A stretch of 48,870 nt of DNA from Promethearchaeia archaeon (GTDB lineage: Archaea; Asgardarchaeota; Lokiarchaeia; Sigyniarchaeales; SOKP01). The translations under genes and the position numbers were made by a program. The notes under the pieces are model-generated. The model did not search any database. It was not told the origin of the DNA and worked only from the letters and a program-made list of their open reading frames with translations. Shown here piece by piece: positions 1 through 37,446 of the stretch. The stretch covers positions 1 through 48,870 of the forward strand of contig JAHQWG010000015.1 of NCBI GenBank assembly GCA_029856045.1. The letters run 5' to 3'. Positions within the stretch are counted from its first letter, which is position 1. Each line of letters starts with the position of its first letter.

Positions 1-85
1 CTATTAATCCGATTATGCTTATCGTCAATAACATGCTTATAATAAATAAAACTACTCTTGGATTGGCCGTCCAGCCAATAGAAAC
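1..85 (-). other. Open frame after the TAG encoding a membrane-anchor-like tail
   Basis: Directly after the TAG at 86-88, the same minus-strand frame continues for 28 sense codons to the edge. It reads a short polar stretch (VSIGWTANPR) followed by a strongly hydrophobic segment (VVLFIISMLLTISIIGLI). That is the expected shape of a C-terminal membrane anchor for the secreted protein just upstream. The open frame and fitting topology suggest one ancestral coding sequence, now split by a nonsense codon, or less likely read through. Confidence 0.5.
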
Positions 86-769
86 CTACACCGCATCCTT
101 AGGAAATGAAACCCCATAAGTATATTGTTGCATTGGAACATTTGTTTCAGTCCATGTATAAATTAAATAATCGGTACTATCAATTTCCGTGAAACTATAG
201 CTATTATATTCCCTGTAATGCCATTTAACTTCGTTTCCATTTGTGAAATTTGGTGGAAAATAAAAATTAACTTCAAGATATTCATAAGTAGGACAAAAAC
301 TAGAACTAAACCAAGTTGGAGAAAATTCAACACTTGCCAAACTTTCATTTTCATAATCGCCAAAAATCATATTTGGATTGTTTCCAATCACATAAAGCTG
401 ACCAGATTCTCCTGGATCAATATAATGCCCAGTAAGCCATATTTCAACACCAATATTTATAACTTCTGATACTTCGATATTATAACTAGGTATATCATAC
501 TCACCAATTTTTGCTTTTACACTTGATAAATCATAATCAGCAGTTGGAAAACCAATATCAACTACGTTAATCGGATCTGCCCAAGAATGACAAGTAAAGT
601 TAATCCAATATTCAATTGTAATAGACCCATCTAGTTCAATATAAACATTTGTTTTCATATAATCAACATCAAAAGAATACGTATGAGCGTTAACGTTTGT
701 AGTGGTCGAAGCAATGAAGATTATTGCTAATCCAATAATACTACTATAAATTAACCATTTTTTGTTCAT
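86..769 (-). CDS. Secreted/surface protein of unknown function, ending at an in-frame TAG
   Basis: I do not recognise the family. The protein starts with basic residues and a hydrophobic stretch (about residues 5-25) ending near VNAHTYS, which looks like a signal peptide or N-terminal anchor. The rest is beta-rich with many aromatic residues and N-glycosylation-type NxS/T sites, as in extracellular archaeal domains. I chose the ATG at 769 over two GTG codons at 784 and 781 because a GGTGA lies 8 bases upstream and it avoids overlapping the upstream gene, which ends at 778. The frame stops at TAG (86-88), but the same frame stays open beyond it to the window edge and encodes a hydrophobic helix, so the C-terminal anchor of this protein may be cut off by a nonsense codon. 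It probably forms an operon with the membrane zinc-ribbon gene 9 bases upstream. Confidence 0.65.
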   Translation of the reverse strand: MNKKWLIYSSIIGLAIIFIASTTTNVNAHTYSFDVDYMKTNVYIELDGSITIEYWINFTCHSWADPINVVDIGFPTADYDLSSVKAKIGEYDIPSYNIEVSEVINIGVEIWLTGHYIDPGESGQLYVIGNNPNMIFGDYENESLASVEFSPTWFSSSFCPTYEYLEVNFYFPPNFTNGNEVKWHYREYNSYSFTEIDSTDYLIYTWTETNVPMQQYTYGVSFPKDAV

Positions 770-777
770 TTTCTTTC

Positions 778-1164
778 TCACCACTTCACTTTATCTTTAG
801 GCAATTTAATCGCTTCCCCGCATTTCTCGCAATAAACTATTTCTTTTTTCTTCATATCCTCTGATATTTCAATTGGGGTTCCACAATTTTTACAAATCAT
901 TTCAGATGGCACATATTTTGTTTCTTCTTTTATATCCTTAGGTTCTTTAACTTTTACAATCTTATACTTGGTTCTCTGAATTAAACGCAAGATTATAACT
1001 AAAAGAGTAATGGCAATAATTATCAATAATACTCCAATTGTCAACCGTAAAACCGTTTGTGTTGGATCTACTGGGGATGCAAGTATATAAACCACACCGA
1101 AAAATGTAAGAACCACAAAAAGAATTATTGCTATAATTTTTAAAAAGATATTTGATTCACTCAT
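778..1164 (-). CDS. Two-helix membrane protein with C-terminal zinc ribbon
   Basis: This is a 128-residue protein of unknown function. Two hydrophobic segments (about residues 8-30 and 41-61) form a membrane hairpin, followed by a basic linker and a cytoplasmic-type zinc ribbon with C91-x2-C94 and C112-x2-C115. The ATG at 1164 is the only reasonable start. The gene is followed 9 bases later by the start of the secreted protein on the same strand, so the two are probably cotranscribed. Membrane-anchored zinc ribbons are common in archaea and recur in this window (16383-17546), but the ribbon alone does not define a ligand. A regulatory or scaffold role is only a guess. Confidence 0.7.
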   Translation of the reverse strand: MSESNIFLKIIAIILFVVLTFFGVVYILASPVDPTQTVLRLTIGVLLIIIAITLLVIILRLIQRTKYKIVKVKEPKDIKEETKYVPSEMICKNCGTPIEISEDMKKKEIVYCEKCGEAIKLPKDKVKW

Positions 1165-7310: not shown

Positions 7311-8945
7311 CTATTTTAATCGTGCATATAGCTTTTTATTATCATCGAGTTTTTCTAATAATAATTGGGCATCTCTATTATCAACAGAAAGAGTTATATC
7401 TCCTCTCTTACTAAAACACCCTGTAAAAATAACTCTCGACCCAGAATATATCTCTACGTTCTTACCAGCGTAAATCGGATTCGCAGAAACCACGAGATTG
7501 TTATCTTGTATTTCTAAATCCAATTGAATTTGCTCTCTTTTTCTAGATTTTTTTTTTGTTATGTAATTACTATAACTTTCTTTGTATTCTCTTGAAATAG
7601 GAACCACTACAGTATCTTGCCCGAAGGAATATATTTCAAAAATTAGAGAATTATTAAAGAATTCTCGTGCCTCAATAACAGGTCTAGCCAAATCTTTATC
7701 TCTGAAACCCGTAGGAACTTTAACTGCCATTTTTACAACCAGCACAGATGACACTTCTCCACCCTTTATGAAAATTATTGTGTCTATAATGGATGGAAGC
7801 ATCCCAAGCTCAATTCGAGCAATAAACCTCTGTAAAGCATCAATGGCCGAGGAAGAATGAATTACGCCCACCATTCCTACACCACTTAGGCGGAAATCAG
7901 AGTAGACCTTGAAATCATCCGTGGTTCTAACTTCATCGAAAATTGTGAAATCTGGTCTTGCCAAAAGAAGTATATCAGCAGAATTTTCCAAACTACCTTC
8001 TAATTTAGTATATTGAGTTATTTCGGGGTTGACTTGTAAATCTCTAACACTTTCTAACGTTTTTACAATTTTATTTTGTTTTAAATAATTATTTGCTAAT
8101 GCTGCAGCGAACGTGCTCTTTCCCGCCCCAGGTGGTCCGCAGACTAAAATGCCTTCTGCTCGTTGAAGTCTTTTCATTAATTTATTGTCAAGATTATAAT
8201 CATTAAGCTCTTTTCTAATTAGGGGTTTGGTTATTGTAACTTCGATCTCATTAGAAAAATTTGGCCGAGTTATGACAATACGATATTCTCGTAGCTGCGC
8301 TACAATAGCCCCTTCTTTCTCAATTTCGATAAATGAGCGAGGGTCTTCTTTTACAGCCTCAAGAATTTCATAAATAATATCTTCAATTTGTTTTGTAGTT
8401 ATATATTCATCATTGATCTTGCTTAAATACCAATTTCCTGGACTCCCTTTTTTTGCATAGGGTGGAATATATCTTTTTAGATGAACAGACATCGTATTTT
8501 CATCAAAAAAATCGAATAATTGCAAATGAGGTAATCCTTTTTTCCTCTTTTTGACTTCTTCTTTAATTAGAATCACATTTAAGCCCTCAAAAATACCCAT
8601 ATCATATTGAACTTTATCTCCCGTAATTAAAGTGGCATCATGCGTATCTTGGCGAATGGCTGCATCTAATTCCCCCCCATAATTGAGTTTTATTTGTTCC
8701 ATAGTGGGACGTTTTCCTACTAATTCTAGTTTAATTTTATCTTGATTATGATATTCTCTTAACTTTTTTAATACATACAATCCATATTTACCAATTACTT
8801 TGCCTACATTTGCTTGAAATTCAATTTCTGCGGTAACAATTCTTGATATTAAAATATTGGGTTTAATACCTAATTCTTCTTCGTTTATCAATTCTAAGAT
8901 TTTTCCATTCAGGATAACTGATGTATCCACAATAAATTTTTCCAA
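7311..8945 (-). CDS. PIN-domain / VirB11-like ATPase fusion protein
   Basis: A 544-residue archaeal protein with two clear modules. The N-terminal PIN nuclease-like domain (1-125) carries the acidic residues D7, E40, D94 and D110 expected for metal binding. The second module is a secretion-ATPase (PilT/VirB11-like) core with Walker A GPPGAGKST (270-278), an acidic box TIFDEVR (334-340) and the conserved His in HSSSAIDALQRF (H363). The C-terminal tail (from about 470) is beta-rich and may be an RNA-binding KH/TRAM-type domain. This fusion is a conserved archaeal family of unresolved function, usually discussed in the context of RNA processing or translation. The next gene upstream on the same strand is the tRNA-splicing endonuclease-like gene, 60 bases away, consistent with an RNA role. 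The stop is TAG. Confidence 0.85.
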   Translation of the reverse strand: MEKFIVDTSVILNGKILELINEEELGIKPNILISRIVTAEIEFQANVGKVIGKYGLYVLKKLREYHNQDKIKLELVGKRPTMEQIKLNYGGELDAAIRQDTHDATLITGDKVQYDMGIFEGLNVILIKEEVKKRKKGLPHLQLFDFFDENTMSVHLKRYIPPYAKKGSPGNWYLSKINDEYITTKQIEDIIYEILEAVKEDPRSFIEIEKEGAIVAQLREYRIVITRPNFSNEIEVTITKPLIRKELNDYNLDNKLMKRLQRAEGILVCGPPGAGKSTFAAALANNYLKQNKIVKTLESVRDLQVNPEITQYTKLEGSLENSADILLLARPDFTIFDEVRTTDDFKVYSDFRLSGVGMVGVIHSSSAIDALQRFIARIELGMLPSIIDTIIFIKGGEVSSVLVVKMAVKVPTGFRDKDLARPVIEAREFFNNSLIFEIYSFGQDTVVVPISREYKESYSNYITKKKSRKREQIQLDLEIQDNNLVVSANPIYAGKNVEIYSGSRVIFTGCFSKRGDITLSVDNRDAQLLLEKLDDNKKLYARLK

Positions 8946-37209: not shown

Positions 37210-37446
37210 CTATACCTTCAATGCTTTTATATCTTCTTTCATAATTGTTTTTCTTTTTAGTTCTCCCTTTGACTTCCCTTTCGATTTCTTTGGTAGTATA
37301 TCAATAATTTGTTGAATATTGGCTTCGACTTGTTTATCAAGCCATTTAATAACTTCATCTTTGACGTCTCCAGCCCTTCTTATCCCTAATTTACTAAAGT
37401 ACTCATCTACGCGGCTTTTCATTAAAAATTTACTTTTATAACTCAT
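37210..37446 (-). CDS. Archaeal histone-fold protein with extended loop
   Basis: A 78-residue protein with the histone-fold order: helix 1 (about 10-20), long helix 2 (26-52, VKDEVIKWLDKQVEANIQQI) and helix 3 (69-76). The end RKTIMKEDIKAL is the familiar archaeal histone 'RKT..AEDI' segment. Typical archaeal histones are 65-70 residues; here helix 2 and helix 3 are separated by a Lys-rich loop (KKSKGKSKGELK) of about a dozen residues, and the N-terminus is longer. This suggests a divergent histone or a histone-fold DNA-binding protein that compacts chromatin. The stop is TAG. Start: the ATG follows GAGGG. Confidence 0.7.
   Translation of the reverse strand: MSYKSKFLMKSRVDEYFSKLGIRRAGDVKDEVIKWLDKQVEANIQQIIDILPKKSKGKSKGELKRKTIMKEDIKALKV

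Follow-up and report, generated by a model that had tools for sequence, protein, structure and literature searches.

The left edge of the window (the whole stretch of 48,870 nucleotides analysed here) raises the question of what an in-frame TAG is doing in a gene whose reading frame stays open beyond it. On the minus strand, an open reading frame runs from an ATG at 769 to the TAG at 86-88, and past this codon a further 28 codons remain open in frame down to base 1, encoding VSIGWTANPRVVLFIISMLLTISIIGLI, a strongly hydrophobic stretch (Kyte-Doolittle peak = 2.53). Contig C14 ends at base 1; it belongs to an assembly (G000) of 55 contigs and 3.34 Mb with a listed completeness of 100%. The frame past the TAG is 92% identical to the orthologue in genome G004 over 24 residues, so it is not open by chance. 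A sequence-only reading of the window had described this open hydrophobic frame, and the ORF, its translation and the hydrophobicity profile confirm it (coordinates in Table 1).

Table 1 Coordinates of the interrupted gene, its surroundings in the window and comparable genes at other loci
Feature	Position	Strand	Basis and remarks
Tail-protein gene, 5' part, 227 sense codons + TAG	86..769	-	Predicted to comprise a signal helix, then an extracytoplasmic beta domain; from the translation, four same-genus orthologues and the L153 model
In-frame TAG, Asp codon in relatives	86..88	-	Alignment; sole internal stop among listed matches, 227 phylum genomes
Heptamer with four private substitutions creating the TAG, three adjacent codons altered	83..89	-	Count of private changes
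Same frame continued; first transmembrane segment begins, contig C14 ends	1..85	-	Remainder at G000:C40:21219-21737 (-)
Small membrane protein with zinc ribbon, upstream partner in the conserved locus	778..1164	-	Homologue upstream in 52/60 testable main-type loci (other genomes; among matches listed)
CHSAC-tail homologue, family f28	L199:5424-7592	-	Ends in CHSAC repeats, GG(F/Y)R
CHSAC-tail homologue, family f28	L200:12076-14334	+	Ends in CHSAC repeats, GG(F/Y)R
CHSAC-tail homologue, family f28	L201:6071-8203	+	Ends in CHSAC repeats, GG(F/Y)R
CHSAC-tail homologue, family f28	L202:2271-4430	-	Ends in CHSAC repeats, GG(F/Y)R
Degenerate radical-SAM-like protein without CxxxCxxC, possibly a non-catalytic partner	L043:4123-5316	+	Same loci
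Degenerate radical-SAM-like protein without CxxxCxxC, possibly a non-catalytic partner	L096:2848-4293	-	Same loci
Degenerate radical-SAM-like protein without CxxxCxxC, possibly a non-catalytic partner	L203:2288-3712	+	Same loci

An orthologue is present in all four other genomes of the same genus, with 90-92% identity to the window's part of the gene in three and 59% in the fourth; their frames are open for 631-639 codons and run uninterrupted past the TAG site. When 227 genomes of the phylum were searched with a profile built from these four proteins at full length, 62 had matches, and among the matches listed an internal stop occurs only in the window's own copy (G000:C14). The rest of this copy lies at the right end of another contig of the same genome (G000:C40:21219-21737, minus strand), where the C-terminus and stop codon are intact, and ~198 codons between the ends of C14 and C40 are absent from the assembly. 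Given orthologues of ~630 residues and the continuation on C40, the hydrophobic helix is the first transmembrane segment and not a terminal anchor. The sequence-only reading was therefore right that the frame past the TAG enters a membrane helix, and unsupported where it saw a secreted protein split from its C-terminal anchor: in the orthologues, further membrane segments follow, then a domain in the cytosol and a tail rich in Cys. The part on C40 (110 codons) has a dN/dS of 0.018 against L002 and 0.091 against L004, so that decay is not indicated there; for the first part of the gene, dN/dS is 0.21-0.38 in the pairs that include the window's copy, and ordinary purifying selection is seen in all pairs. 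Contig ends also break the tail-protein gene in G030 (on two contigs) and in G020.

At the site itself, GTA GAT GTA in the relatives is replaced by GTG TAG GTT. The window's copy carries 12 private changes in 768 nt, four of them inside the heptamer (P ~ 0.0005 if changes were uniformly distributed), and this cluster lies 83-89 bases from the contig end. Four private changes also share one heptamer in the relative L002, and elsewhere in the gene pairwise comparisons show 4-5 differences crowded into 7 nt. Among the 39 syntenic G004 ORFs matched in the window, four showed an internal stop. Two of the other three stops precede the true start (g31 and g42) and one lies in a spurious antisense ORF (g45), so the TAG-bearing gene is the sole frame in the window broken with respect to G004; genome-wide frame damage was rejected for the window on the same ground.

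We consider it very probable that the TAG is no programmed stop and that it breaks a conserved membrane-protein gene in this assembly only. For its source we lean towards a consensus or assembly artefact at the contig edge, on account of the private cluster near the contig end, the constrained part on C40, the contig breaks of the same gene in other assemblies, the intact rest of the window and PylS and PylB searches that stayed below cut-off. No other frame in the rest of the contig is broken, which lends no support to a consensus of poor quality throughout. Ranked after the edge artefact is a very recent true nonsense mutation, arising in one complex event and leaving the strain with a protein cut to its soluble secreted beta domain, which is possible and to which we give less credence. 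In its favour, one multinucleotide event could account for four changes in 7 nt, the window is otherwise unbroken, and the change is private to the window in a gene whose first part is under ordinary purifying selection; against it, selection on the C40 part is unrelaxed, and the site lies <90 bases from a contig end in a gene that is broken by contig ends in G030 and G020 too. It is quite improbable that a true disruption (an insertion element or a deletion) exists at the gap between C14 and C40 as well and that the whole locus is decaying. Such a reading would account for both contigs ending within the gene and for the missing ~198 codons, but the two ends do not abut, the downstream part and the radical SAM gene are intact and constrained, and contig breaks in the same gene recur in other genomes.

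Nonsense mutation and assembly error, which the sequence-only reading had listed beside selective readthrough, are thus the two options that lead, and readthrough is unsupported. Readthrough of the UAG, whether by pyrrolysine insertion or by a suppressor tRNA, would yield a secreted and an anchored form and would agree with the conserved frame past the stop and the strongly constrained downstream part, and pyrrolysine use is reported, in the accessible part of the source, for one Asgard class, Sifarchaeia (PMC9723677). The present case has in common with that recoding an in-frame UAG in Asgard archaea, and differs from what this part of the source describes in that the UAG is not conserved and the Pyl proteins searched for are not above cut-off: PylS and PylB gave only weak matches in G000 (28.5 bits vs. 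a cut-off of 178.15, and 26.9 vs. 348.2, respectively), with one of 14 control genomes, presumably Methanosarcina acetivorans, above cut-off in each search. No relative among the listed phylum matches has the TAG, and the stops of the 36 window genes with a syntenic G004 orthologue comprise 26 TAA, five TAG and five TGA. The TAG stops at 7311, 9006, 41167 and 47687, which had been taken as ordinary, are in this set, and that at 37210 falls outside it. Genome-wide amber recoding is therefore unlikely, as had been supposed, pyrrolysine recoding was rejected, and readthrough in any form appears extremely improbable.

The main interest of the locus is the interrupted gene, not its stop. Intact copies would begin with a signal helix and an extracytoplasmic beta domain, cross the membrane in one or three segments, and then carry a winged-helix-like region in the cytosol and, at the C-terminus, the disordered tail CACACACAGCACACAGGGR. 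In the model of the L153 homologue (pLDDT = 79, pTM = 0.46), a signal helix is predicted at residues 6-28 and the beta domain at ~40-225, followed by helices in the membrane, a cytosolic region that is helical and winged-helix-like (so described from secondary structure) and a disordered tail, which the model itself does not predict. Positively charged residues that follow the membrane segments suggest that the tail is on the cytosolic side. No Pfam or NCBIfam model scored above cut-off against the tail protein, and a search of solved-structure sequences with its profile gave one match (E = 0.8), taken as chance. In fold searches, the L153 model matched mainly M1 peptidases and ribophorin I/Ost1, with TM-scores of 0.20-0.25 taken over the entire query; these matches may reflect the shared fold of one domain, presumably the beta domain at ~40-225; we claim no function from them.

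The orthologues end in CACACA...GGGR. The pattern CACACAGGGR followed by a stop matched at least 117 stretches in contigs representing one genome per species; as these loci were chosen by their tail, its identity among them is built in, and they give a minimum for its breadth. As a check independent of the pattern, 29 loci were found by homology without the tail: 25 of them end in it, two end otherwise and two are cut, so that the tail is nearly invariant. Among the at least 117 listed stretches, the main-type tail is found in 98 and a second type, ending GCACACACAGGGR, in 19. By their record titles, the matches listed include bacteria (Chloroflexi/Anaerolineae, Armatimonadetes, Pirellulales, Aminicenantes, Acidobacteriota, Sabulitectum, Fermentibacteraceae, Coatesbacteria, Edwardsbacteria and Zixiibacteriota) and archaea (Methanomassiliicoccales, other Thermoplasmatota and several Asgard groups).

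The two homology-found loci without the tail are an apparently chimeric contig end and a short ORF in G011. In the former, the G003 copy (L005:1-265, G003:C25) runs into foreign-looking sequence at the tail and has a non-tail end, beside which lies a frame that we take to encode a LuxR/MalT-like protein. In the latter (L039:1351-2010, plus strand), a TAA follows 219 residues, with an unrelated leucine-rich-repeat-like ORF beyond it.

Among the matches listed, a catalytic radical SAM gene lies directly downstream of the tail gene on the same strand in 71 of 85 testable main-type loci and is absent from this position in 14, whereas at second-type loci the radical SAM gene is upstream instead (five of six loci with >=4 kb upstream, four of five with >=4.8 kb); a methyltransferase gene follows the tail gene in 44 of 63 main-type and nine of 14 second-type loci. 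Both the enzyme and the methyltransferase genes come after the tail gene on C40 of the window's own genome. For Asgard tail loci, the enzyme motif occurs within 1.5 kb downstream in 30 of 38 and not in the remaining eight. Two of these exceptions, G158 and G160, encode the enzyme elsewhere in the genome, in G158 side by side with a methyltransferase-like gene and away from the tail locus. In many Chloroflexi loci there is also a radical-SAM-like protein that is degenerate and lacks the cysteine motif; examples of such proteins from tail loci are given in Table 1. Past the methyltransferase in this genus, genes labelled by eye as ABC/ECF-like transporters and secreted/membrane proteins are present at L013:8936-13979 and L010:250-5281, and the order of the transporter and secreted genes past the methyltransferase is conserved between G000 and G004.

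The enzyme contains the Pfam domains Radical_SAM and SPASM (the latter at 49.2 bits vs. a cut-off of 21.5), and the three Cys of its CxxxCxxC radical SAM core are invariant in 36 sequences; among the matches listed, none to NCBIfam reached the curated cut-off. Pfam PqqD is matched in the sister-clade enzyme of L200 (29.3 bits vs. a cut-off of 23.4) and not in the enzyme of G000. In the clade of the window's enzyme, an RRE/PqqD-like domain is indicated by the predicted fold of the L153 enzyme only, in which residues ~38-122 of the N-terminal part form strands and then three helices. The structures nearest to this model are SkfB (Z = 27.4, 344 aligned, rmsd = 4.6, from residue 49) and SuiB (Z = 26.2, 377 aligned, rmsd = 4.4, from residue 39), and on re-alignment the residues before 121 are barely covered except in the rows of these two. 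A TAG flagged in the radical SAM match of G016 proved to be only a codon preceding the start.

Across the 227 Asgard genomes, the enzyme (E up to 1e-60) is found in 74 and some tail in 70, with both in 66, the tail only in four, the enzyme only in eight and neither in 149 (P = 7e-43, uncorrected for ancestry). Of the 227, 38 have the CACA tail and 32 the CHSAC motif, with no genome having both; in 29 of the 32 genomes with the CHSAC motif, the divergent enzyme is present. The enzyme is more divergent in family f28, G058 and G088, and four f28 loci encode tail-protein homologues of 710-752 residues whose ends consist of CHSAC and VSGG(F/Y)R repeats. In these 227 genomes, each of the two tail types thus pairs with its own score class within one enzyme family; the division into classes was made after the data had been seen.

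Tail protein and enzyme look like a membrane-bound, RiPP-like modification system that has had no name so far. We think it probable that, in this unnamed and widespread system, an RRE-bearing radical SAM/SPASM enzyme modifies a cytosolic CACACA...GGGR or CHSAC...GG(F/Y)R tail of a membrane protein, and that it does so in many bacteria as well as in Asgard archaea and Thermoplasmatota; the product would remain permanently membrane-tethered and serve perhaps as a metal or redox sensor or as a cofactor carrier. If the enzyme works like known maturases of the RRE-bearing radical SAM/SPASM kind, its RRE/PqqD-like domain would dock the substrate, and the radical SAM centre would alter the tail cysteines on the cytosolic side, for example through thioether crosslinks; the product could be a thioether-crosslinked or metal-binding tail. 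The C-terminal GG-x-R common to both tails may be the recognition end, and at many loci the methyltransferase and the degenerate radical-SAM-like protein may help. The Cys-Ala tail might instead be no substrate at all, being simply metal-binding or lipid-modified, and the radical SAM enzyme would then act on another target. This would suit the 14 main-type loci without an adjacent catalytic radical SAM gene and the His that sister tails hold besides Cys; the strong co-occurrence of tail and enzyme, the pairing of tail types with enzyme score classes and the RRE/PqqD domain of the enzyme nevertheless make a non-substrate tail unlikely.

Should an enzyme indeed modify the tail, archaea, including relatives of the eukaryotes, and many bacterial phyla would share a radical SAM modification that is carried on a protein and comes in two tail chemistries. 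Cultured bacteria carrying the system include Ornatilinea apprima, Bellilinea caldifistulae, Levilinea saccharolytica and Leptolinea sp. HRD-7, and it can therefore be tested. The TAG itself is a minor matter, a warning that annotation would give a truncated secreted protein in place of the full membrane protein made by relatives.

Among known systems, the RRE-bearing radical SAM/SPASM RiPP maturases (SkfB, SuiB, the sactipeptide maturase 5why, and PqqE with PqqD) have in common with the present enzyme the radical SAM and SPASM domains, a PqqD/RRE-like N-terminus and an adjoining Cys-rich candidate substrate. Their substrate is a short peptide, whereas the candidate here is the tail of a membrane protein of ~500-750 residues; accordingly, of the usual marks of a RiPP locus, we found an adjacent candidate precursor with a Cys-rich core and no short leader-core precursor peptide. 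The layout of the tail protein also resembles that of the DUF2207 membrane proteins (PF09972, PF20990), which have an N-terminal beta domain, membrane segments, a C-terminal domain and a Gly-rich tail. Matches to these were weak (E = 0.00043 and E = 0.079, below the Pfam cut-offs); one sister-clade member reached 21 bits vs. a gathering score of 24.4, and 57 CACA-tail members gave no DUF2207 match at E = 0.01. Our literature search, with most subscription papers outside its coverage, found no description of this tail or of its pairing with a radical SAM enzyme. The nearest published analogy found is TIGR04222, a group of multi-pass membrane proteins whose Gly/Ser/Cys-rich C-terminal segments are, in the accessible part of the source, proposed substrates of an adjacent MNIO iron enzyme and predicted to be periplasmic (PMC12452194). 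The TIGR04222 model had no match in three orthologues (E up to 10) or five distant homologues (E up to 1). As far as that part of the source goes, the two share a membrane protein with a Cys-rich end beside a gene for a putative modifying enzyme and differ in that the partner here is a radical SAM enzyme and the tail is apparently cytosolic.
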